64,000 nucleotides of DNA from Wenzhouxiangellaceae bacterium (GCA_007695005.1 REEQ01000066.1:1-64000), one strand, 5' to 3'; positions 50,625 to 64,000 are shown, numbered from the stretch's first letter. Numbers and translations: made by a program. The notes: generated by a model from the sequence alone, not told the origin.

Positions 50625-52994
50625 TCAATTCCGCAACGGCTTGCCTGTCTTCAGCATATGCCCGATCCGCTCCTGCGTCTTCGGCATGGCACACAGTTCC
50701 AGGAAGTGCTCGCGCTCCAGGTGGTGCAGCCAGTCTTCGTTGACCGGGGTGCCGCGGTCGATTTCGCCGCCGCAGATCACGGTGGCGATGCGGCTGCCGA
50801 TTTCGAAGTCATGCTCGGAGATGAAGTGGCCTTCGAGCATGTTGACCAGCAACATCTTCAGCGTGGCCACGCCGACATCGCCGGCGGCCGGGATGGTGCG
50901 CCCGGCAAGATCCGGGCGGTAGCCGGCCGCGCTCAGGCCGCGGACCAGGCCGTGGGCCGCATGCAGCAGCTCGTGTTCGTGCATCACGACCAGGTCTTCC
51001 GGCCGCAGGTAACCCATCTCTTTCGCCTCCAGCGCTGAACTCGAGACCTGCCCCATGGCTACCTGCTTGTAACGCTTCTCCAGCAGCGGGAAGGTATCGC
51101 CGGCAGCCGTGTCGGCGTTGATCTGCATCGCCAGGGTGGCCAGGCCGCCGCCGCCGGGCAGCAGGCCGACGCCGGCTTCGACCAGGCCCATGTAGCTTTC
51201 CAGGTGGGCGACGCGACGGCTGGCGTGCATGGCCAGCTCCAGGCCACCGCCCAGGGCAAGACCGCGCACCGCGGCAACCGATGGTACGGCCGCGTAGCGC
51301 AGGCGCAGGTTGACGGCCTGGAAGCCGCTGACCAGGGCGCGAACGCTGTCGAAATCACCGCGCTGAATGGCTTCGGCTGCGGCTTTCAGGTTGGCACCGG
51401 CGGAGAAGGGGCCCTGCGGCTGCCAGATCACCAGGCCGTCGAAGCCGGCCTCGGCCTTGTCCAGGGCAGCGTTCAGGCCGTCGACGACGCCGTTGTCGAT
51501 CACGCCCATCTTGGTCTTCAGGCTGGCGATCAGGACATCATCGTGCAGGGTCCAGAGTCTGATGGCATCGGTCTCAAAGACGGTCTGGCCGTCATGGCTG
51601 GCCTCGCCGAACAGGCGCACCGGCTGGTACTGGCGCTGGTAGACGGCCAGGTCCGGGCGCGGGCTGACTTCGTTGGTGGCACCTGAATAGGAACCGCCCG
51701 GGCCGTGCACGCCCTCGACATCGCCGACCCATTTCGGCAGGACCACATCGACCTCGGCCTTGCCGGACTCGACATCGTCCTCGATCAGGCAGGCCACCTT
51801 GCGCCAGCCGGCGGCCTGCCACTGTTCGAACGGGCCCATCTTCCAGCCGTAGCCCCAGCGCATCGCCAGGTCGATCTCGCGGGCTGATTCGGCGATCGCC
51901 GCCAGGTGGTGGGCGCAATAGTGGAACAGGTCGCGGTGGATGGCCCACAGGAACTCGGTTTCCGGATACTCGCACTTGGCCAGCTCGGCCAGCTTTTCGC
52001 CCGGATCCTTGATTGCCAGCACCGCCTTGACCTCGTCGCGGACACTGTAGTCGGTGCTGCGGTAATCGCCGGTCTCGGGATCGAAAACCTTGATCTCACG
52101 CCCTTCCTTGCGGAATACGCCGGCCCCGGCCTTCTGGCCCAGGGCGCCGGCCTCAACCAGCTTCGCCAGCCACTCGGGTGCCTTGAACAGGTGGTGCCAG
52201 GGGTCGTCGGCGAGCTTGGCGTCCATGGTCTTGATGACGTTGGCCATGGTGTCCAGGCCGACCACGTCGGCCAAGCGGAAGGTCGCTGACTTCGGCCGCC
52301 CGATTGCAGGCCCGGTCAGGGCATCGACGGTATCGAAGCCCAGCCCCAGGCGCTGGGCATGGTGCATGGTCGACCACATCGTGAACACGCCCACCCGGTT
52401 GGCGATGAAGTTGGCCGTATCGCGGCAGCGGACCACGCCCTTGCCCAGGTTTTTGGTGAGGAAGTCTTCGAGCAGATCCATGACCGCGCCGTCGGTGCCC
52501 TCATGCGGGATCAGTTCGACCAAGTGCATGTAGCGCGGCGGATTGAAGAAGTGCACCCCGCAGAAGCGGGATTTCAGCGCATCGGGCACGACGCCGGCCA
52601 GCTCGTTGATCGACAGGCCGGAGGTGTTGGTGACGAAAAAGGCATCGGCATGGATGTGCGGGCCGATCTTTTCATACAGCGATTTCTTGATATCCATCCG
52701 CTCGACGATGGCTTCGATGATGAAGTCGCACTGGGCAAGCTGCTCCAGGTCATCATCGAAGTTGCGCGCGGTAATGAACTGGGCCAGGTCCTTGCCGGCC
52801 AGCGGCGCGGGCTTGAGCTTGAGCAGGTTCTGAATGCCGCCTGCGGCGATCTTGCTGCGCTGCTTGTCGTCGCTGGGCAGATCATAGAGATCAACGGGAA
52901 TGCCGGCGGCGGTCAGGTGGGCGGCAATCTGCGCCCCCATCACCCCGGAACCGAGCACAGCGGCACGGCGTACACGAAGTTTCTGGTCAGTCAT
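50625..52994 (-). CDS. fadB: 3-hydroxyacyl-CoA dehydrogenase / enoyl-CoA hydratase
   Basis: RRAAVLGSGVMGAQIAAHLTAAGIPVDLYD; CGVHFFNPPRYMHLVELI; C-terminal crotonase GLALGGGLELAMHASRRVAHLESYMGLVEAGVGLLPGGGG. Confidence 0.93.
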   Translation of the reverse strand: MTDQKLRVRRAAVLGSGVMGAQIAAHLTAAGIPVDLYDLPSDDKQRSKIAAGGIQNLLKLKPAPLAGKDLAQFITARNFDDDLEQLAQCDFIIEAIVERMDIKKSLYEKIGPHIHADAFFVTNTSGLSINELAGVVPDALKSRFCGVHFFNPPRYMHLVELIPHEGTDGAVMDLLEDFLTKNLGKGVVRCRDTANFIANRVGVFTMWSTMHHAQRLGLGFDTVDALTGPAIGRPKSATFRLADVVGLDTMANVIKTMDAKLADDPWHHLFKAPEWLAKLVEAGALGQKAGAGVFRKEGREIKVFDPETGDYRSTDYSVRDEVKAVLAIKDPGEKLAELAKCEYPETEFLWAIHRDLFHYCAHHLAAIAESAREIDLAMRWGYGWKMGPFEQWQAAGWRKVACLIEDDVESGKAEVDVVLPKWVGDVEGVHGPGGSYSGATNEVSPRPDLAVYQRQYQPVRLFGEASHDGQTVFETDAIRLWTLHDDVLIASLKTKMGVIDNGVVDGLNAALDKAEAGFDGLVIWQPQGPFSAGANLKAAAEAIQRGDFDSVRALVSGFQAVNLRLRYAAVPSVAAVRGLALGGGLELAMHASRRVAHLESYMGLVEAGVGLLPGGGGLATLAMQINADTAAGDTFPLLEKRYKQVAMGQVSSSALEAKEMGYLRPEDLVVMHEHELLHAAHGLVRGLSAAGYRPDLAGRTIPAAGDVGVATLKMLLVNMLEGHFISEHDFEIGSRIATVICGGEIDRGTPVNEDWLHHLEREHFLELCAMPKTQERIGHMLKTGKPLRN

Positions 52995-53036
52995 GAATCA
53001 TCCTTGGTTTTCATCGGAATCGGTTAAATGCTCTCT

Positions 53037-53218
53037 CGCGCAGAGGCGCCAAGAAAATCTTTTTGAATGAAGACTTTTCCTTCCGTTGCGCGTCTGCGTC
53101 TCTCATCAAGCAGATCAATCACGTATTGTTTTGAAAAAATCCCACCGCAAAGACGCCAGGTTCACGAAGAAAAAATACCTTCGCTTTCCTACCTTCGCGT
53201 TCTTCGCGTCTTCGCGGT
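53037..53218. repeat. Two adjacent related inverted-repeat elements between fadE and fadB
   Basis: CGCAGAGGCGC (53039-53049)/GCGCGTCTGCG (53088-53098) and ACCGCAAAGACGC (53144-53156)/GCGTCTTCGCGGT (53206-53218); inner cttcgcgt repeats. Confidence 0.75.
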
Positions 53219-53228
53219 TGGTTGTCTT

Positions 53229-55673
53229 TTAGCTAGCCTCGGCCAGGACCGGGCGCTGTGGTTCGCTGCTGTTGGCGAGTTCCTCGGGGGTAAACTCGTC
53301 GACGGCGATCACCCGGGCGCTCAGTTCCTGCGCGCGGATCAGGTCGGCGGCTTGCTCCTCGCTGATCACGCCGGCTTCGACCGCCTTGCGGGTCAGGGTG
53401 TTGACGTTGGTTGGGCTGGGTACGGCCTTGAGCGCATTGCGGATGGCATGTTCGGCCGGCTCGGCCTTGAGGACGGCATCGAAGGCCTTCAGTACGATGC
53501 CGGTGCCGTCTTCTTCCTGTGACATGAAGCAGCCGGCAATCAGGCGCTCGCGAGTTGGCGATTTTTCCAGCAGCAGGCGGGCAATCTTGTGCCCGGTGCG
53601 GTCGTCAGACTTGTTGTGCACGCGGCCCCAGGGGAAGCAGACAACGCGCAGTACACGGCCCAGGGCCCGGATCGGGAAGTTACGGTACACGCCGTGCAGG
53701 GCCTCTTCAACCTGGTGCAGGCTGTCCTCGACCGAGAACTTGACCAGCGGCAGGTCTGCGGCCGGCCGGCCGTCATCTTCCCAGCGGCGCAGGATGCTGG
53801 AGGCCATGTACAGGTGGGCCAGGGCATCGGCGAAACGCCCAGACAGCTTTTCGGCAAACTTGAACCTGCCACCCAGGATCAGCAGAGCGAGGTCGGCAGT
53901 CAGGGTGAAGGCCGAGCTCAAGCGGTTGACGCGACGGTAGTAGCGGGCGGTTGGGCCGGACACCGGGCTTGCGCTCAGGCCGCCGCCGGTCAGACCAAGC
54001 AGGGGGGTGCGCACAGTGTTGGAGATCAGGAAGCCGACATGGCCCCAGAGCGCGGCATCAAAGGCCTTCAGGTCATTGTCCTGCGCGGCCAGCATTTCCT
54101 TCAGCAGGTAGGGGTGGCAGCGGATCGCGCCCTGGCCGAACACGATCATCGAGCGGGTCAGGATGTTGGCACCTTCCACCGTAATCGACACTGGCAGGGC
54201 CTGGTAGCCCAGCGACAGATAGTTGCCCGGACCCTCGACCACGGCCTTGCCGCCATGCACGTCCATGGCGTCGTTGACTACCCGCCGGTTGGCTTCGGTC
54301 AAGTAGGCCTTGAGAATGGCTGACAGTACCACCGGCTTGTGGCCGGCATCGAGTGCGGCCAGGGTCAGCTTGTGGGCCGCTTCCATCCGGTAGGCTTCGG
54401 CGCCGATCCGGGCCAGCGGCTCTTCGATGCCTTCGAAATAGCCAATCGGCTGCTTGAACTGGTAGCGAATTCGCGCATAGGCGCCGGTCATCGCCGAGCA
54501 GGCCTTGCCGCCAGCCACACCCTGGGCGGGCAGGGAAATGGCCCGACCGGCAGCCAGGCAGTGCATCAGCATGCGCCAGCCCTGGCCAATGCGCTCCTTG
54601 CCACCGATTACCCAGTCCATGGGAATGAATACATCCTTGCCGCGGGTCGGGCCGTTCATGAACAGCGAGCCGCCGGGCAGGTGCCGGTTGCCGATTTCCA
54701 CGCCCGGCGTGGATGTCGGGATCAGGGCGCAGGTAATGCCCAGATGCTCCTTGTCGCCCAGCAGGCCCTCGGGATCGCGGGTCTTGAAGGCCAGTCCGAG
54801 TACGGTCGCCACCGGCGCCAGGGTGATATAGCGCTTGTCCCAGGTCACGCGCAGGCCGAGAACTTCCTTGCCATCGACGACTTTCTTGCAGACCACGCCT
54901 TCATCGGGCATGGAAGCAGCGTCGGAACCGGCCTGGGGTGAGGTCAGGGCAAAGCACGGAATCTCCTCGCCGCGAGCCAGTCGAGGCAGGTAGTGGTTTT
55001 TCTGATCGTCCGTGCCGAAGTGCATCAAAAGCTCGCCGGGGCCGAGCGAGTTCGGCACCATCACCGACACGGCCGCCGTCAGGCTGCGGGTGGAAATCTT
55101 GGTCACGGCGGCTGCATTGCCCTGGGCCGAAAATTCCAGCCCGCCGTACTGCTTCGGAATGATCATGCTCAAGAAGCGCTTGTCGCGGATGAACTGCCAG
55201 ACTTCCGGCGGCAGATCCTTCAGTTCGCGGTTGATCTTCCAGTCATCGAGCATCTTGCACAGCTCTTCAACCGGGCCATCAACAAAGGCCTGTTCTTCTG
55301 CGCTCAAGGCAGGCGCAGGCTGATCGAACAACACCTTCCAGTTCGGCTTGCCGCTGAACAGCTCGGCATCCCACCACACCGTGCCAGCATCCAGCGCTTC
55401 CTTTTCGGTGGCAGACATGGCCGGCAGCACGCCCTTGAACCAGTTGAACAGAGGTTTCGAGAGCACCGAGCGACGTAGCGGCGTGACGGTAAAGAACAGC
55501 AAAACGGCGGTGGCGGCCAGTAGTACCAGGTCAAGCTGCCACGCCGATGGCAGCCAGAACAAGGCAGCGCAGCTCAAGCCGGCGGACAGCAAGGTGGCCA
55601 GCCACAGGGGTGCCCTGAACCAGGCCAGAGTGAGCAGGCCGAGGACGAGAACGACAAGAACGGTGAGCGTCAT
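53229..55673 (-). CDS. fadE: Acyl-CoA dehydrogenase, FadE type (membrane-anchored)
   Basis: N-term TM, EEIPCFALTSPQAGSDAASMPDEGVV, KRYITLAPVATVLGLAFKTRDPEGLLG; DUF1974-like C-term. Confidence 0.95.
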   Translation of the reverse strand: MTLTVLVVLVLGLLTLAWFRAPLWLATLLSAGLSCAALFWLPSAWQLDLVLLAATAVLLFFTVTPLRRSVLSKPLFNWFKGVLPAMSATEKEALDAGTVWWDAELFSGKPNWKVLFDQPAPALSAEEQAFVDGPVEELCKMLDDWKINRELKDLPPEVWQFIRDKRFLSMIIPKQYGGLEFSAQGNAAAVTKISTRSLTAAVSVMVPNSLGPGELLMHFGTDDQKNHYLPRLARGEEIPCFALTSPQAGSDAASMPDEGVVCKKVVDGKEVLGLRVTWDKRYITLAPVATVLGLAFKTRDPEGLLGDKEHLGITCALIPTSTPGVEIGNRHLPGGSLFMNGPTRGKDVFIPMDWVIGGKERIGQGWRMLMHCLAAGRAISLPAQGVAGGKACSAMTGAYARIRYQFKQPIGYFEGIEEPLARIGAEAYRMEAAHKLTLAALDAGHKPVVLSAILKAYLTEANRRVVNDAMDVHGGKAVVEGPGNYLSLGYQALPVSITVEGANILTRSMIVFGQGAIRCHPYLLKEMLAAQDNDLKAFDAALWGHVGFLISNTVRTPLLGLTGGGLSASPVSGPTARYYRRVNRLSSAFTLTADLALLILGGRFKFAEKLSGRFADALAHLYMASSILRRWEDDGRPAADLPLVKFSVEDSLHQVEEALHGVYRNFPIRALGRVLRVVCFPWGRVHNKSDDRTGHKIARLLLEKSPTRERLIAGCFMSQEEDGTGIVLKAFDAVLKAEPAEHAIRNALKAVPSPTNVNTLTRKAVEAGVISEEQAADLIRAQELSARVIAVDEFTPEELANSSEPQRPVLAEAS

Positions 55674-56314
55674 GGGTGGATCTCCAGGGTGCGAACAGCA
55701 CCAGGCTTGGTGCGGGAAGAAATGGCCTTGCGCAGGCCGGCAGCGGCGAAACGGACCAGATCAGCAGCGATCTCGCGGCCGTCGCTGACTTCGCATTCGG
55801 CCATCGTGTAAGTCAATGCGCCAACAATGAAATCCAGCTGCCGGCGCAGGTCGCGCTCGTGCAGACCGGGCAGGGCTTCGGCGATGGCACGGGCGAAGCG
55901 CTGCATGACATGAGCGTACTCGGCGCTGAGCGCCCTGTGCAGCTGCTCATCCCGGTCAGCCAGCGCCCGCATCAAGATGCGCATGAAGCGATGGCCGGCA
56001 TCAGCGCTGCCGTGAGTAAAAGCCAATGCGGGTACTACGAAAGCCTCCAGCACCGCTTCCAGCTGCGGCGGCTTGCCTTGCGCCAGTGCCTGTTCCAGCT
56101 GGACCAGGCGGGCCCGGTTCAGGGCATCCAGTCGGCGCCGGAAGACCGCCAGTATCAGCGCCTGCTTGGAGCCAAAGTGATAGTTGACGGCCGCCAGGTT
56201 GACCTCGGCAGCCTGGGTAATCTGCCGCAACGAGGTCGCGTGGAAGCCCTCTTCAGCAAACAGCTGTTCAGCGCTGTCCAGAATGCGATCGCAGGTTGAA
56301 GTGGCCTGATTCAA
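55670..56314 (-). CDS. TetR-family regulator, PsrA-like
   Basis: CDRILDSAEQLFAEEGFHATSLRQITQAAEVNLAAVNYHFGSKQALI; 4-bp overlap with fadE. Confidence 0.88.
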   Translation of the reverse strand: MNQATSTCDRILDSAEQLFAEEGFHATSLRQITQAAEVNLAAVNYHFGSKQALILAVFRRRLDALNRARLVQLEQALAQGKPPQLEAVLEAFVVPALAFTHGSADAGHRFMRILMRALADRDEQLHRALSAEYAHVMQRFARAIAEALPGLHERDLRRQLDFIVGALTYTMAECEVSDGREIAADLVRFAAAGLRKAISSRTKPGAVRTLEIHP

Positions 56315-56928: not shown

Positions 56929-57104
56929 GAATTCCCTCCAGTTCGGACAAGTGACAGGTGCTGCCAGTATGGAAACCGGGGGCGGCGGCTTGCATCGGGC
57001 GGCTTGCCCGTCAGAGCGTGAGAAAATGACCATGGCAGCGCTGGGAAAAGAGTGGGTTCACGATCAGTTCACCGCGGCGGCATGTAATACTGAGCGCCGT
57101 TTCC

Positions 57105-58034
57105 ATGGAGCTATGCATGTCCGCCTCGCGCAGCTTGACCGCCTGGTTCAGGACTGATACCGAACTACCCGATGGCGCCGATGACAAGCGCGTCGACTGG
57201 CTCAGGATCCTGCCGTTCATCGGCTTGCATCTGGCTTGTCTTGCCGTCTTTCTGGTCGGCTGGTCATGGACCGCCCTGGTCGTGTTTGCGCTCAGCTATC
57301 TGGTGCGAATGTTCGCGATCACGGCCTTCTACCATCGCTACTTCGCCCATCGCAGCTTTCGGGTATCGCGGCCGGTGCAGTTTGTTTTTGCCGTGATCGG
57401 CGCCAGCGCCACCCAGCGCGGACCGCTATGGTGGGCAGCGCATCATCGCCATCACCACAAGGTTGCCGACCGCCCGGAAGACCCGCACGCCCCCCGGCAT
57501 GGTTTCCTCTGGTCGCACATGGGCTGGTTTCTCAGCCGCCGCCATTTCGCCACCGACCACAGCCAGATTCCTGACCTGCAGCGCTACCCGGAGCTGCGCT
57601 GGCTGGATCGCTTCGACCTGCTGGTGCCGGTTGTTTTTGCTGCGGCCCTGTACGGGCTTGGTGCGTTGCTTGAGCGGTTTGCACCGGGCTTGGGCACCAA
57701 TGGGTGGCAGCTCCTGGTCTGGGGCTATTTTCTTGCGACGGTGGTTTTGATCCACGTGACCCTGACGATCAACTCGCTGGCCCACGTCTGGGGGCGGCGG
57801 CGCTACGCCACCCGTGACGACAGCCGCAATAACTGGTTTCTCGCCTTGCTGACTCTGGGCGAAGGCTGGCACAACAACCATCATCATTTCCCCGGTTCAG
57901 CACGTCAGGGTTTCTACTGGTGGGAGATCGACATCAGCTTCTACGTGCTTAAATTGATGAGCTGGGTCGGGCTGGTCCATGATCTCAAGGCGGTGCCAGC
58001 GGCGATCCGCGACTCGCGCCGGATCTCGCGATGA
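57105..58034 (+). CDS. Acyl-CoA desaturase (membrane di-iron)
   Basis: Histidine boxes HRYFAH, HHRHHH, GEGWHNNHHHF. Confidence 0.92.
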   Translation: MELCMSASRSLTAWFRTDTELPDGADDKRVDWLRILPFIGLHLACLAVFLVGWSWTALVVFALSYLVRMFAITAFYHRYFAHRSFRVSRPVQFVFAVIGASATQRGPLWWAAHHRHHHKVADRPEDPHAPRHGFLWSHMGWFLSRRHFATDHSQIPDLQRYPELRWLDRFDLLVPVVFAAALYGLGALLERFAPGLGTNGWQLLVWGYFLATVVLIHVTLTINSLAHVWGRRRYATRDDSRNNWFLALLTLGEGWHNNHHHFPGSARQGFYWWEIDISFYVLKLMSWVGLVHDLKAVPAAIRDSRRISR

Positions 58035-59287
58035 AACTGGCCGTGGTTGGTGGCGGGGTGTCGGGCCTGTATGCGGCCTGGCACCTGTCGAAGCAGCATG
58101 AGGTCATTGTGCTTGAAGCCGATCGTCGACTGGGCGGTCATGCCGACACCCACCAGGTGCAGGAGCAAGGTCGCACTATCGCTGTCGACAGCGGCTTTAT
58201 TGTCTTCAACGAAGTGCATTACCCGCTGTTTGCGGCCTGGTTGCAGGCCCTGGGGATCAGTTGGCACGACTCGGACATGAGCTTCTCCGTCTCCGACAGC
58301 GCCAGCGGGCTCGAATACAACGCCACCAATCTCGACCGCTTGTTCTGCCAGCGACGAAACTTGCTGCGGCCCCGCTTCCTGGGCCTGGTTCGAGACATGG
58401 TCCGCTTCTACCGCCAGGCGCCGGACCTGCTGACTGCGGTCGACGAGCATCAGACCCTGGCGCAATGGTTGTCGGGCAGCGGTCTTGGCCGCAGTTTCGC
58501 CGAGTTGCACCTGCTGCCCATGGCGTCGGCCCTGTGGTCGGCGCCCATGGGCCAGGTCGGCGAGTTTCCCATGCGACATTTGCTGGCCTTCATGGACAAT
58601 CACGGCATGCTGACGCTGGGCAAGCGACCGCCCTGGCGCACGGTCAACGGCGGCAGTGCTCGCTATGTCGAAGCTGCGGCCAGGACAATTGGGCGCATCG
58701 AAACAGCAACGCCGGTTCGATCGATCCGGCGCCTGCCGGATCGTGTCGAGGTCGTCACAGACCAGGATGCGCTGGTGGTCGATGGCGTGATCCTGGCCTG
58801 TCACTCCGACCAGGCTTTGGCCCTGCTTGCCGACCCGAACCGTGCCGAGCGCGAAGTGCTGGGCGCGATTGCCTATCAGCCCAACGAGGTTGCCCTGCAC
58901 ACAGACACCCGCGTCTTGCCCCGCCATCCTCGGGCCTGGGCGGCCTGGAACGTGCGCCGTGACCGACATGACAGGGAGCGCTGCCGGGTGTCTTATTACA
59001 TGAACAGCCTGCAAAAACTTGACTGCGCCCGGGACTATATCGTCTCGCTGAACCAGACCGAGCTGATCGACCCGGCCCGGATCATAGCCACGCGCAGCTA
59101 CCAGCATCCTGTTTTTACCACCGCAGCAGTCCGGGCACAACAGCGTTGGGATGAGATCAACGGGCCCCAACGGACCTGGTATTGCGGTGCCTGGTGGGGC
59201 TGGGGTTTTCATGAAGACGGTGTCCGCAGCGCGCGTCGCGTGGTTGACGCCATCGAGGCGGCCGATCGACGGGCGCTGGCCGCGTGA
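58031..59287 (+). CDS. FAD-dependent amine-oxidase-like oxidoreductase (COG2907-type)
   Basis: MKLAVVGGGVSGLYAAWHLSKQHEVIVLEADRRLGGHADTHQV; TWYCGAWWGWGFHEDGVRSA. Confidence 0.9.
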   Translation: MKLAVVGGGVSGLYAAWHLSKQHEVIVLEADRRLGGHADTHQVQEQGRTIAVDSGFIVFNEVHYPLFAAWLQALGISWHDSDMSFSVSDSASGLEYNATNLDRLFCQRRNLLRPRFLGLVRDMVRFYRQAPDLLTAVDEHQTLAQWLSGSGLGRSFAELHLLPMASALWSAPMGQVGEFPMRHLLAFMDNHGMLTLGKRPPWRTVNGGSARYVEAAARTIGRIETATPVRSIRRLPDRVEVVTDQDALVVDGVILACHSDQALALLADPNRAEREVLGAIAYQPNEVALHTDTRVLPRHPRAWAAWNVRRDRHDRERCRVSYYMNSLQKLDCARDYIVSLNQTELIDPARIIATRSYQHPVFTTAAVRAQQRWDEINGPQRTWYCGAWWGWGFHEDGVRSARRVVDAIEAADRRALAA

Positions 59288-60060
59288 CCGGCGCTGCCTG
59301 GCTGGCCGGCGACGCGGCCTTCGCACGCGGCCAGGTCTGGCATCGTCGCTCCGGTCCGCGTCCGCATGCATTTCGCTATCGGCTGTATTTCAGTGTTCTC
59401 GACCTAGATCGGCTGGATCAGGTGTTCGCGCGCAGCCGCCTGTGGTCACTGGAGCGCAGTAATCTGGTCTGCTTTCGTCGCAATGACTTTCTGGGGCCGC
59501 AGCATCTCGGCGTGGCCGAGGCCGTTCGCGAACGAGTGGCATCGCTTGCCGGCCATCGGCCGCAGGGCCGGATTCTGCTGTTGACCCACCTCAGGCAGTG
59601 GGGCATGTGTTTCAATCCGGTCAGTTTTTATCTTTGCCTCGGTTCGGAAGGGCCGGAGTTTATTGTCGCCGAGATTCACAATACGCCCTGGAACGAGCGT
59701 CACGCCTATGTGCTCGACTGCAGGGAGCAGCGGGGGCCGGACTATCGCTTTCAGTTCTCCAAGCGTTTTCATGTTTCGCCCTTCCTGCCCATGGACATGG
59801 ACTATGACTGGCGTTTTCGCTTTGAGCCCGATGCGTTGCTTGTTCACATGGCGGTGACCGACCGCGGCTCAGAATCCTTTCGCGCTGGAATGAAACTGGC
59901 GTTGGAGCCCATGACCAGAGCCGCGATGCGGCGCATGCCGTTGATCTTTCCGCTGATGACACTGCGTGTAGTGACCGGCATTTACTGGCAGGCACTGCGC
60001 CTGTGGCTGAAGCGAACGCCGTTTTATACCCATCCGGACAAGGAGCCTGAAGTCTCGTGA
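59284..60060 (+). CDS. DUF1365 family protein
   Basis: GQVWHRRSGPRPHAFRYRLYFSVLDLDRL; LLTHLRQWGMCFNPVSFYLC; FHVSPFLPMDMDYDW. Confidence 0.9.
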   Translation: MTGAAWLAGDAAFARGQVWHRRSGPRPHAFRYRLYFSVLDLDRLDQVFARSRLWSLERSNLVCFRRNDFLGPQHLGVAEAVRERVASLAGHRPQGRILLLTHLRQWGMCFNPVSFYLCLGSEGPEFIVAEIHNTPWNERHAYVLDCREQRGPDYRFQFSKRFHVSPFLPMDMDYDWRFRFEPDALLVHMAVTDRGSESFRAGMKLALEPMTRAAMRRMPLIFPLMTLRVVTGIYWQALRLWLKRTPFYTHPDKEPEVS

Positions 60061-61331
60061 ACACTGCAACCAAGCGCATCTCTGCTGACCCCAGCGCTGC
60101 CGGCAAGCGCATGGATCGCTGGCTGCGCGATCGTGTGCTGGCGCGGATGAGCGGCATCAGTGATGGGCGCCTGCTGATCCGCGATGCCTCGGGTGAGCAC
60201 AGCCTCGGGCCTGGCGGCGGACTCGAGGCTCAGGTTCAGGTCAATGATATGGGTTTCTGGCGCCTGCTCGCCACCGGCGGCAGTGTCGGTGCTGCCGAGG
60301 CGTACATGGCTGGTCTTTGGGACAGCCCTGATCTGGTTGCGGTCATCCGCGTTCTGGCCCGCAACCGCGACGCCCTGAACCAGGTGGACGAAGGCAGCGC
60401 GCGTCTGAGTGGGCTGCTGCTCAAGCCCTGGCATGCCTTCAATCGCAACAACCTGGTTGGCAGCCGACGCAACATCGCCGCCCATTACGATCTGGGCAAT
60501 GCCTTCTTCGCCAGCTGGCTGGATCAGCGCATGATGTACTCCAGTGCACTGTTCCAGACAGCAGATGAAAGTCTGGAGCAGGCGCAGCTCAACAAGCTCG
60601 ATCGCATCTGCCGCAAGCTCGCCCTCAAACCCGATGATCACCTGCTGGAAATCGGCACCGGCTGGGGCGGGCTGGCCATCCATGCTGCCGCGCACTACGG
60701 CTGCCGGGTGACCACAACCACCATTTCCCGCGAACAGTTCGACCATGCCGCCGCCGCCGTCGCCGAGGCCGACCTCGGCGATCGCGTCGAGCTGTTGCTG
60801 AAAGATTATCGGGATCTGCAAGGGCGGTATGACAAGCTCGTTTCGGTGGAGATGATCGAAGCGGTGGGACATCACTACCTCGACACCTACCTGGCGCGTA
60901 TCGAGCAGCTGCTCAAGCCTTCCGGTCTGGCCCTGCTGCAGGCGATCACGATCGAAGATTTCCGATTTGCCAATGCTTGCAAAAGCGTGGACTTCATCAA
61001 GCGCTACATATTTCCCGGCAGCTTCATCCCGTCGGTTAGCGTCATTACCGGCGCCATGGCCCGCGCGACCCGGCTGGGCTTGATCGAGCTGGCCGATTTC
61101 GGAGCAAGCTACGCCTTGACCCTGAAACATTGGCGCGAACGCTTCGAGGCTGCCTGGGAGGATATTCGGGCGATGGGCTTCGATGAGGTGTTCAGGCGTC
61201 GCTGGCGCTACTATCTGGCCTACTGCGAAGGCGGCTTCCATGAGCGCGCGATCAGCGATGTTCACCTGCTGCTGGCCGGGCCGGACTATCGACCGGCAGC
61301 CTCGACCGGCCTGACCGGGGGTGCGCTGTGA
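60057..61331 (+). CDS. Cyclopropane-fatty-acyl-phospholipid synthase family methyltransferase
   Basis: AHYDLGNAFFASWLDQRMMYSSALF; HLLEIGTGWGGLAIHAAAHYGCRVTTTTIS; VSVEMIEAVGHHYLDTYLARIEQLLKPSG. Confidence 0.93.
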   Translation: MNTATKRISADPSAAGKRMDRWLRDRVLARMSGISDGRLLIRDASGEHSLGPGGGLEAQVQVNDMGFWRLLATGGSVGAAEAYMAGLWDSPDLVAVIRVLARNRDALNQVDEGSARLSGLLLKPWHAFNRNNLVGSRRNIAAHYDLGNAFFASWLDQRMMYSSALFQTADESLEQAQLNKLDRICRKLALKPDDHLLEIGTGWGGLAIHAAAHYGCRVTTTTISREQFDHAAAAVAEADLGDRVELLLKDYRDLQGRYDKLVSVEMIEAVGHHYLDTYLARIEQLLKPSGLALLQAITIEDFRFANACKSVDFIKRYIFPGSFIPSVSVITGAMARATRLGLIELADFGASYALTLKHWRERFEAAWEDIRAMGFDEVFRRRWRYYLAYCEGGFHERAISDVHLLLAGPDYRPAASTGLTGGAL

Positions 61332-61885
61332 ATCCCGCCTTTGTTGTCAACCAGGGGCTGTTCCAGCTCAGCTGGCCGGCCTGCGTGATCGGGGCGGCCT
61401 ACGGCTGGTTGTGGGGCGCGGTTGCCGTGGTCGGTGCGCTGGCGATCTGGCAGCTGCACCCGGCCAATCGCCATCCGCTGGACTTGTCGATGATCGGTAT
61501 CTGTCTCACCCTGGGCCTGGTCCTGGACAGCGCCTGGATCCAGCTGGGCCTGCTCAGCTTCGCCGTGCCCTGGCCCTGGCCCGGCGTTGCTCCGGCCTGG
61601 ATCATGCTGCTGTGGCTGGCGCTGGCCCTGGTGATCAATCACTCCATGGGCCTGTTCAGGCAGCGCCTGCTGCTGATCGGTGTCCTTGGCGGTATCGGCT
61701 CACCGATGTCCTACTACGCGGGATCGCGCTTCGGCGCAGTCGAGTGGCTCGCCCCGGCCTGGCAGGTGGTGCTGGCCACCGGGCTGAGCTGGGCGCTGGT
61801 ATTGCCGCTGCTGTTCTGGATTGCGCGTTCCCACGAGCATGCCCGGGCCGGCTCGGCATCTGTCCAAGGAGTACAGCAACCGTGA
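61328..61885 (+). CDS. DUF2878 family membrane protein
   Basis: About 180-aa polytopic protein, HSMGLFRQRLLLIGVLGGIGSPMSYYAGSRFGAV; position between Cfa-like genes. Confidence 0.82.
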   Translation: MNPAFVVNQGLFQLSWPACVIGAAYGWLWGAVAVVGALAIWQLHPANRHPLDLSMIGICLTLGLVLDSAWIQLGLLSFAVPWPWPGVAPAWIMLLWLALALVINHSMGLFRQRLLLIGVLGGIGSPMSYYAGSRFGAVEWLAPAWQVVLATGLSWALVLPLLFWIARSHEHARAGSASVQGVQQP

Positions 61886-62907
61886 ATGCCATTGACCTGG
61901 CCGAACGCGGCCTGGCACCTGACTTCCTGATCCGCGCCGGGATCCGGCGTCTGCTGCGACGACGGCTGGCTGATGAAGCTGATCGAGACCCGGAGCGCCG
62001 CGCCCAGCGCACGCAGGCGCTGATGGACGAGCTGGCTCGTTCGGCCATTGCCATCGAGACTGACGCGGCCAATGAACAACACTACGAAGTGCCGGCCGAA
62101 TTTTACCGCCTGGCGCTGGGCGCTCATCTGAAGTATTCCAGCGCACTTTGGCGCGAAGATACCGCCAGCCTGGATCAGGCCGAAGCCGACATGCTGGCCG
62201 CCTCCTGCGAGCAGGCCGAACTGGCCAATGGTCAACGCATCCTGGAGCTGGGCTGTGGCTGGGGCTCGCTGAGCCTGTGGATGGCTGCCAACTACCCGGA
62301 CAGCCAGATCACCTCCGTCTCCAACTCGGCATCACAGCGGGCCTGGATTGAATCCCGCGCGCTGGACCTGGGCCTGCACAACCTGAGCGTGCTGACTTGT
62401 GACGTCAATCAGCTGCGGCTTGACGAGCGCTTCGACCGCGTTGTGTCGGTGGAGATGTTTGAACACGTTCGCAACTATCGGGAGCTGATGCGTCGCATCG
62501 CCGGTTGGTTGAAACCTGACGGCAAGCTGTTCGTGCACATCTTTTGTCACCGTTACCTGGCCTACCCCTTTGAGACCGAGGGTGCCGGCAACTGGATGGG
62601 TCGCTATTTCTTCACCGGCGGCTTGATGCCCGCGGCCGACACGCTGCTACACTTTCAGGATGACATGGCCCTGGAAAACCGCAAGCTCTATGCCGGTACG
62701 CACTATGCACGCACCGCCCGCGCATGGCTGGACAACATCGATCGGCGAGCGGGTCAGGCACGCCAGGTCATGGCTGACCTGCATGGCGACGAGGGCGATC
62801 GCTGGTTGCAGCGTTGGCGCATGTTCTTCATGGCTTGCGAAGAGCTGTTTGCCTTTGATGGCGGCAACGCCTGGCTGGTGGCGCACTATCGATTCCGACG
62901 GCGCTAA
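61882..62907 (+). CDS. Cfa/coclaurine N-methyltransferase-like SAM-dependent methyltransferase
   Basis: GTG start in GTGA overlap; EQHYEVPAEFYRLALGAHLKYSSALW; RILELGCGWGSLSLWMAANYP; GRYFFTGGLMPAADTLLHFQDDM..GTHYARTARAWLDNID. The listed ORF 61321-62907 is an over-extended start. Confidence 0.88.
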   Translation: MNAIDLAERGLAPDFLIRAGIRRLLRRRLADEADRDPERRAQRTQALMDELARSAIAIETDAANEQHYEVPAEFYRLALGAHLKYSSALWREDTASLDQAEADMLAASCEQAELANGQRILELGCGWGSLSLWMAANYPDSQITSVSNSASQRAWIESRALDLGLHNLSVLTCDVNQLRLDERFDRVVSVEMFEHVRNYRELMRRIAGWLKPDGKLFVHIFCHRYLAYPFETEGAGNWMGRYFFTGGLMPAADTLLHFQDDMALENRKLYAGTHYARTARAWLDNIDRRAGQARQVMADLHGDEGDRWLQRWRMFFMACEELFAFDGGNAWLVAHYRFRRR

Positions 62908-62913
62908 CCGCGA

Positions 62914-64000
62914 ATGAGGTTTCGACGACGCCGATATCGGGATGGGCTGAACAGCAAGCTCATTCGGGTATTCGTTCTGCAGGTGCTGGCGATCTCGGTG
63001 GCCACCGTGCTGGGTGTCTATGGTGCTGCTCTGGTCGTTGAGCGGGTGCTGGTGCAGGAAGCGCTCAACGGCGAGGCCGAGCATTTCTGGGAGCGCTACC
63101 GCAAAGACAACAGCTTTCCGCTGCCCAACACCAACAACCTGCGTGGTTACATGGCCCAGCGCAGTGATTTTTCCGGCGTGCCGGAATGGTTGCGTGATGA
63201 GGCGCCGGGCTTTCGCCGGGTTCGTGAGGCGCCCCAGTCCGAGCCCGTGGTACATGTCTCAGACCGCGGCGGTGATCGCCTCTACCTTGTATTTGACGAG
63301 GTGCAGGTGTCGGCGCTGGCCTTTTATTTCGGTATCGCCCCGCTCACCGGCGTTTTGCTGCTGATCTACCTGCTGACCTGGCTGGGCTATCTGATGTCGC
63401 GCCGGGCCGTGTCCACGGTTATCCTGCTGGCCGAGCAGGTCCGCAATTACGACTTCCAGTCGGGTCAGTTCGAGCAGTTCACCCTGGATGATTTCGGTGA
63501 TCCGAACGACACCGAAGTCATTGCCCTGATCACCGCCTTCAACCAGTTCATCCAGCGGCTTGAATCGTTCATCCAGCGCGAGCGCAACTTTACCCGTAAT
63601 GCCAGTCATGAACTGCGCACGCCGCTGGCGGTGGTCAAGGCCAACCTGGAGCTTTTGTCGCGTTTCGACGAGCCGGAGCGCCGCCAGCGAGTCGTTGACC
63701 GCATGGCCCGTACTGTCCGCGACATGGAGTCGCTGGTCGAAACCCTGCTGATCCTCGCCCGCGAGTCGGAGTCGAAGCTGTCGCAGACATCGGTGGTCCT
63801 GAACGACCTGCTCGCCGAGCTGCTGGACCAGGTCAAGCGTGCCGTGCCGCGTGAGAATGTCACCACCAGTATCGAAGCCACCGGCCTGGTCGAAGTCGAG
63901 GCGCCGGAGCGGGTGCTGGCCATTGTGTTCACCAATCTGCTGCGCAATGCCATGACCTACACCGAGCAAGGCTCGGTCGATGTTCTGATCGACCGCAACG
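62914..64000 (+). CDS. Sensor histidine kinase, 3' truncated by window edge
   Basis: My translation from ATG 62914: MRFRRRRYRDGLNSKLIRVFVLQVLAISVATVLG..RERNFTRNASHELRTPLAVVKANLELL..FTNLLRNAMTYTEQGS; absent from ORF track because no stop lies in the window. Confidence 0.88.
   Translation, partial: MRFRRRRYRDGLNSKLIRVFVLQVLAISVATVLGVYGAALVVERVLVQEALNGEAEHFWERYRKDNSFPLPNTNNLRGYMAQRSDFSGVPEWLRDEAPGFRRVREAPQSEPVVHVSDRGGDRLYLVFDEVQVSALAFYFGIAPLTGVLLLIYLLTWLGYLMSRRAVSTVILLAEQVRNYDFQSGQFEQFTLDDFGDPNDTEVIALITAFNQFIQRLESFIQRERNFTRNASHELRTPLAVVKANLELLSRFDEPERRQRVVDRMARTVRDMESLVETLLILARESESKLSQTSVVLNDLLAELLDQVKRAVPRENVTTSIEATGLVEVEAPERVLAIVFTNLLRNAMTYTEQGSVDVLIDRN

Follow-up and report, generated by a model that had tools for sequence, protein, structure and literature searches.

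A compact operon in a Wenzhouxiangellaceae bacterium with homologues of all four furan fatty acid enzymes and a predicted dimethyl furan product

Results

An operon predicted to make a dimethyl furan fatty acid

In a 64,000-nucleotide stretch of the genome of a Wenzhouxiangellaceae bacterium (GCA_007695005.1, REEQ01000066.1:1-64000; hereafter the window), the plus strand carries an operon that encodes homologues of each of the four known enzymes of furan fatty acid (FuFA) synthesis: UfaD, UfaO, UfaM and FufM. On the strength of these sequence relationships we predict, with a probability of roughly 0.75, that its product is a dimethyl furan fatty acid, formed on membrane phospholipids. In Rhodobacter and Rhodopseudomonas, the steps of this pathway have been demonstrated: phospholipid cis-vaccenate is first methylated by UfaM and then desaturated by UfaD; UfaO, a DUF1365-containing protein, next forms the furan with oxygen drawn from O2, and a second methyl group is put on by FufM, the R. 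palustris enzyme producing dimethyl furan (PMC7380195). The window operon probably represents a new arrangement of this known pathway, complete in one place and with regulation of its own, by a two-component system.

Six plus-strand open reading frames at 57117-62907, each with one terminal stop in its frame and coding-type GC content by codon position, make up the enzyme-coding part of the operon:

57117..58034, + strand: membrane fatty acid desaturase (PF00487, 1e-20; histidine boxes; start set by alignment to relatives)
58031..59287, + strand: UfaD homologue, a COG2907-type flavin adenine dinucleotide (FAD) enzyme predicted to desaturate the methylated acyl chain (identity to Rhodopseudomonas UfaD; Pfam Amino_oxidase/NAD_binding_8)
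59284..60060, + strand: UfaO homologue, DUF1365, predicted furan-ring oxygenase (PF07103, 1.7e-78, 264 bits; identity to Rhodopseudomonas UfaO)
60057..61331, + strand: UfaM homologue, predicted S-adenosylmethionine (SAM)-dependent methylase of the cis double bond (PF02353 CMAS; clade, signature and identity)
61328..61885, + strand: DUF2878 small membrane protein (PF11086, 1.3e-35)
61882..62907, + strand: FufM homologue, predicted second methylase, from monomethyl to dimethyl furan (PF02353 CMAS; FufM clade; identity to Rhodopseudomonas FufM)

All five junctions overlap by exactly 4 bp, with ATGA at 58031-58034 and GTGA beginning at 59284, 60057, 61328 and 61882. An initial annotation of the window had proposed these six reading frames and five overlaps, and both are borne out at the coordinates it gave, save for the desaturase start. 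It had placed that start at 57105; position 57117 (MSASRSLTAWF) is probably correct, because relatives start there (MSLKRSLTAWF, MTAKRSLASWF) and a GGAG precedes it. Nor does the operon end at 62907, as had been supposed, since a linked 442-aa histidine kinase opens 6 bp downstream, at 62914, and crosses the window end. This in-operon kinase and a direct repeat upstream of the desaturase had both been missed.

The two methyltransferases fall in the UfaM and FufM clades

Our enzyme references were Rhodopseudomonas homologues from two genomes (G505 and G487), each of which has only two CMAS genes, one beside UfaD-UfaO and the other distant and preceded by DUF1295. This layout fits that of RPA2571-2569 and RPA0923/0924. 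The distant gene was matched to RPA0924, and so to FufM, by elimination, the published identity between RPA0924 and UfaM being 26% (PMC7380195).

A maximum-likelihood tree of 86 CMAS proteins places the first methyltransferase of the operon with Rhodopseudomonas UfaM in a 50-row clade (support 100/100) that leaves outside E. coli Cfa, the Rhodopseudomonas Cfa-type proteins and the canonical Cfa of the same genus. At E. coli positions 139, 240, 266 and 269, UfaM members have S, A, Q and T almost without exception, where Cfa members have C, H, H and G. The protein is 44-45% identical to Rhodopseudomonas UfaM and 38% to E. coli Cfa, and the tree together with the signature rules out a canonical Cfa identity for 60057-61331. 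E. coli Cfa holds a catalytic bicarbonate through Glu239, His266 and Tyr317 (PMC11387697); of the Cfa site residues C139, E239, H266 and Y317, the UfaM homologue keeps the glutamate and tyrosine and carries C139S and H266Q, so that the site is not intact. We considered these two changes as proof of a non-cyclopropane product and dropped the idea: the S/Q signature marks the clade and not the product, because cotton enzymes with C139S and H266Q still yield cyclopropane (PMC3132707). Separate canonical Cfa proteins with an intact C139/H266 site are retained in same-genus relatives, among them the close relatives G026 and G017. In the window's own genome (G000) only two CMAS genes were found, both in the operon; the absence of a third is uncertain, because the assembly is 91% complete.

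In the same tree, the operon's second methyltransferase shares a clade with Rhodopseudomonas FufM (support 100/100), to which it is 45-47% identical, as against 28-30% to UfaM or Cfa. Its closest solved relatives are plant N-methyltransferases, for example coclaurine N-methyltransferase (CNMT; 6gkv, E=3e-68), and an Arabidopsis FufM homologue, AT4G33110, has been named FUFM1/LIME1 (PMC10940516).

The remaining proteins of the operon

The UfaD homologue is 38-41% identical, over about 420 columns, to full-length Rhodopseudomonas UfaD, while the genome's next match to the UfaD query reaches 29%. The UfaO homologue shares 33-34% identity with Rhodopseudomonas UfaO. Its structural model (mean predicted confidence, pLDDT, 92.9) is a beta-barrel with a long C-terminal helix, for which a fold search of the PDB returned no known oxygenase fold and only calycin/nitrobindin-like barrels (best E 9e-4, TM 0.28); because these matches are weak, the fold gives no reading of the cofactor. 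DUF2878 is modelled as an all-helical protein, probably located in the membrane (pLDDT 94.5), and the fold search of the PDB gave nothing for it at E<=0.001. The desaturase has intact histidine boxes (HX4H, two HXXHH and NSLAH), and its closest solved relatives are the acyl-CoA desaturases 4ymk and 4zyo.

The initial annotation had recognized a lipid-modification operon with a connection to Ufa proteins and had named furans among the candidate products, all of which stands; by leaving cyclopropane, methyl-branched, conjugated and furan lipids equally possible, it was too open, and the product that it called not yet assigned is narrowed to a predicted dimethyl furan by the homologues of the four FuFA enzymes. 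The second methyltransferase, then described merely as CNMT-like, belongs to the FufM group; DUF1365, treated as an unknown co-occurring gene, is the UfaO furan-forming oxygenase family (PMC7380195); and the tree does not place both methyltransferases in non-lipid clades, an outcome that had been named as one that would refute the lipid reading.

Gene order and co-occurrence among relatives

The order desaturase-UfaD-UfaO-UfaM-DUF2878-FufM recurs at loci from the window's genus, family and wider order; at the genus and family levels, the kinase comes directly after FufM. Across order-level loci, with start codons picked automatically, the first four junctions have gaps of at most 20 bp in 26/28, 29/31, 30/32 and 25/29 cases, and a gap of exactly -4 in 18, 9, 20 and 18 of them. 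This tight linkage is not due to chance. Small gaps are the rule and an exact -4 is less common, so what is conserved is the close packing of the genes, the size of the overlap being unremarkable.

In many other members of the order, DUF2878 and FufM stand about 800 bp apart with a DUF1295 gene in the interval, and in alphaproteobacteria DUF1295 often immediately precedes FufM; the window's genus has DUF1295 homologues elsewhere in the genome and none in the operon. The position directly before FufM recurs in many distant genomes (loci L097, L100, L117 and L177, besides the order-level loci L049-L061), and the pattern suggests that DUF1295 is an unrecognised partner in furan methylation.

Co-occurrence was scored in a phylum sample of 349 genomes (FufM at E<=1e-35, UfaO at E<=1e-10), in which 25 have FufM, 124 have UfaO and 23 have both. 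UfaO is present in 23/25 genomes with FufM and in 101/324 others (Fisher p=1.6e-9, relatedness ignored); of the two FufM genomes in which no UfaO was scored, G175 does have DUF1365 by hidden Markov model search. An alphaproteobacterial family sample gave 30/31 versus 28/89 (p=4.7e-11, relatedness again ignored). In four genus members (G023, G007, G020 and G004) FufM lies on another contig or assembly piece than UfaD and UfaO, the UfaD proteins being 40-42% identical to that of the window. The FufM-only loci of G023 and G007 were at one point taken as counter-examples and were dropped, UfaD and UfaO being present elsewhere in both genomes. The pathway partners are separable, yet are kept together in the genome, which is more telling than the p-values.

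Proposed pathway and alternative products

We propose the following route, in which the steps from UfaM to FufM follow by homology to the Rhodobacter and Rhodopseudomonas enzymes. The desaturase may supply or top up a cis-monounsaturated acyl chain, whose double bond UfaM would methylate with SAM to give a methyl-trans-monoene; the flavoprotein UfaD would desaturate this to a methylated conjugated diene, UfaO would close the furan ring with O2 to give a monomethyl furan, and FufM would add the second ring methyl. DUF2878 probably assists in the membrane by holding substrate or enzymes. For the methylation step there is a further precedent in Halomonas UfaM, which in E. coli gave 11-methyloctadec-12-enoate (PMC12089945).

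Several observations weigh against the furan product. Identity of the UfaO homologue to the type that was assayed is low, at 33-34%, and its motif reads NTPW in place of NTFG; our comparisons used Rhodopseudomonas homologues and not the exact assayed sequences of CGA009 or R. sphaeroides; one genome of the phylum sample, G093, carries a FufM homologue without UfaO or UfaD, possibly an orphan FufM or one with another function; and the S/Q signature is shared by plant enzymes whose products are cyclopropanes (PMC3132707). The last point leads to a reading in which the CMAS/FAD pair is of the plant type and makes cyclopropane or other methylated, non-furan chains, with DUF1365 and the second methylase having other roles. 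Cotton GhCPS1 and GhCPS2, which join an N-terminal oxidase to a cyclopropane synthase (CPS) domain, carry C139S/H266Q and yield cyclopropane (PMC3132707), and expression of Halomonas UfaM also gave some cyclic fatty acids (PMC12089945). Yet Agrobacterium oxidase and CPS homologues produced no cyclopropane in yeast (PMC3132707), same-genus relatives keep their separate canonical Cfa, and the conserved operon includes UfaO and FufM as well, with FufM tracking UfaO across the phylum; we therefore judge a plant-type product improbable.

It is likewise conceivable, though we think it very improbable, that the pathway stops at the monomethyl furan and that the FufM-like gene encodes an N-methyltransferase that acts on a small amine or on the headgroup of a lipid. 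The solved plant relatives, CNMT foremost, point that way; the fully supported clade and the 45-47% identity tie the protein instead to Rhodopseudomonas FufM, in a family with shown furan methylase activity, and the presence of FufM is nested within that of UfaO. The dimethyl furan product remains the reading that we prefer.

A conserved upstream repeat and a linked histidine kinase

Three further features flank the six genes:

57057..57072, + strand: direct repeat TTCAC-N6-TTCAC with an 11-bp period, TTCACGATCAGTTCAC, candidate OmpR/PhoB-type activator site
57085..57090, + strand: candidate -10 box TAATAC, 12 bp 3' of the repeat (consensus match only)
62914..64000, continuing to contig position 64242, + strand: histidine kinase (HisKA and HATPase_c), the last linked gene

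Direct repeats with an 11-bp period that lie immediately before a -10 box are typical of OmpR/PhoB-family activators. Within the window, the repeat is the sole match at up to one mismatch. A TTCAC-N6-TT(C/G)A(C/T) element occurs no more than 150 bp upstream of the desaturase in 16 of 18 genus and family loci, against 0.0085 expected from shuffles; among spacings of 0 to 15 in these loci it was seen only at 6, and several relatives have TAAT at the same spacing from it. Loci of the genus and family show the kinase linked to the operon, and relatives have an OmpR-type response regulator nearby. Taken together, these comparisons suggest that the kinase and OmpR-type regulator pair probably controls the operon, turning it on through the candidate TTCAC-N6-TTCAC site, the pairing of this regulator with this site being our inference.

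In Rhodobacter, control is of another kind, and the window operon might similarly be under extracytoplasmic function (ECF) sigma factor-ChrR singlet-oxygen control, with the TTCAC repeat part of another element. R. sphaeroides RSP_1090/91 belong to the RpoE regulon and lie beside rpoE-chrR (PMC7074977), and an ECF sigma factor-ChrR cupin pair is present elsewhere in the window's genome (G000:C11, L252:5825-6852), not evidently linked to the operon. On inspection by eye, the window shows a TGATC-N18-TAA-like string, which was taken up as a possible promoter of this type and rejected as not conserved in relatives. No GATC-N17-20-TAA is conserved upstream in the relatives, a loose GATC-N-TAA match being confined to the window's own sequence; the conserved element is instead the TTCAC repeat at its single spacing, and the gene linked to the operon is a histidine kinase. 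ECF sigma-ChrR control is thus unlikely; it concerns control and not product, and is compatible with a furan.

Exact copies of TTCAC-N6-TTCAC number three in the window's whole genome and two to eight per genome among the genomes scanned. In four of six genomes, another copy precedes an operon of DUF3429, ABC ATPase, FtsX-type permease and CrtC/lipocalin genes (L248:7107-11951, also L249, L250 and L251), a candidate second member of the regulon.

Neighbouring genes

Minus-strand fatty acid oxidation genes at window positions 50625-56314 adjoin the operon. They encode 3-hydroxyacyl-CoA dehydrogenase/enoyl-CoA hydratase-like and acyl-CoA dehydrogenase-like proteins, as assigned from sequence only, along with a PsrA-like TetR repressor whose match lies below the NCBIfam cut-off. 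Directly 3' of the kinase and outside the window, a mevalonate-pathway operon (L033:15064-20000, contig C75 64249-69184) encodes diphosphomevalonate decarboxylase, a GHMP kinase, a 768-aa fusion of HMG-CoA reductase with a GHMP (mevalonate-type) kinase, and a NUDIX isomerase; its linkage to the kinase recurs in many genus members.

Discussion

Fish, plants and microbes contain furan fatty acids, which are potent antioxidants. A compact operon that holds every pathway enzyme and is conserved across an order could serve directly as a cassette for heterologous production. It also draws attention to DUF2878 and DUF1295 as candidate partners in the pathway, and to a candidate regulon and sensor kinase governing the synthesis of furan lipids in organisms other than phototrophs. 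Among the open papers that we searched, with most subscription journals outside their coverage, none was found to describe the desaturase-UfaD-UfaO-UfaM-DUF2878-(DUF1295)-FufM arrangement, its linked two-component system or the upstream repeat.

More tentatively, and as a combination that we hold to be somewhat doubtful, the operon's own desaturase could shift the furan along the acyl chain, for instance by supplying a monoene that is delta-9 or iso-branched in place of cis-vaccenate, giving a dimethyl FuFA unreported from bacteria; the dedicated two-component system could sense a membrane or oxidative signal and also control the DUF3429-ABC-CrtC-lipocalin operon; and DUF2878 could replace DUF1295 as the membrane partner of FufM.

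Among known systems, the UfaM/UfaD/UfaO and FufM pathway of R. sphaeroides (RSP2144/RSP1091/RSP1090) and R. palustris (RPA2569-2571, RPA0924) has all four of its enzymes represented by homologues in the window operon (PMC7380195), and Rhodopseudomonas has the same UfaD-UfaO-UfaM order. The window operon differs in having FufM inside it, in the added desaturase and DUF2878, in lacking, across its genus, a DUF1295 beside FufM, and in having a linked kinase and TTCAC repeat in place of a conserved ECF sigma-ChrR site. The gammaproteobacterial clusters of Aeromonas, Vibrio and Halomonas have, as published, short-chain dehydrogenase/reductase and SnoaL partners, with no FufM or desaturase listed. 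The Aeromonas cluster (AXA69_RS13645-13670) groups COG2907, DUF1365, Cfa-like and DUF2878 genes likewise, with a SnoaL/NTF2-like gene nearby, as in relatives of the window operon (PMC10012899); Halomonas has ufaD, ufaO and ufaM consecutively, as here (PMC12089945); and the Vibrio DUF2878 gene VC1123 is annotated under the MerR-type regulator PhrR (PMC12971978). E. coli Cfa belongs to the same CMAS superfamily and lies outside the UfaM clade, its C139, H240, H266 and G269 being replaced by S, A, Q and T in the window protein. In plants, CPS/UFAMD proteins (cotton GhCPS1-3, Arabidopsis AT3G23510) fuse a UfaD-like domain to a UfaM-like one, whereas the two are unfused in the window, and GhCPS1/2 share the S/Q active-site changes with the window UfaM but make cyclopropane. 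The Arabidopsis proteins reside on lipid droplets, unlike those of the window operon, yet a separate UfaO-like DUF1365 protein (AT1G30130) and the FufM-like AT4G33110 parallel the window genes.

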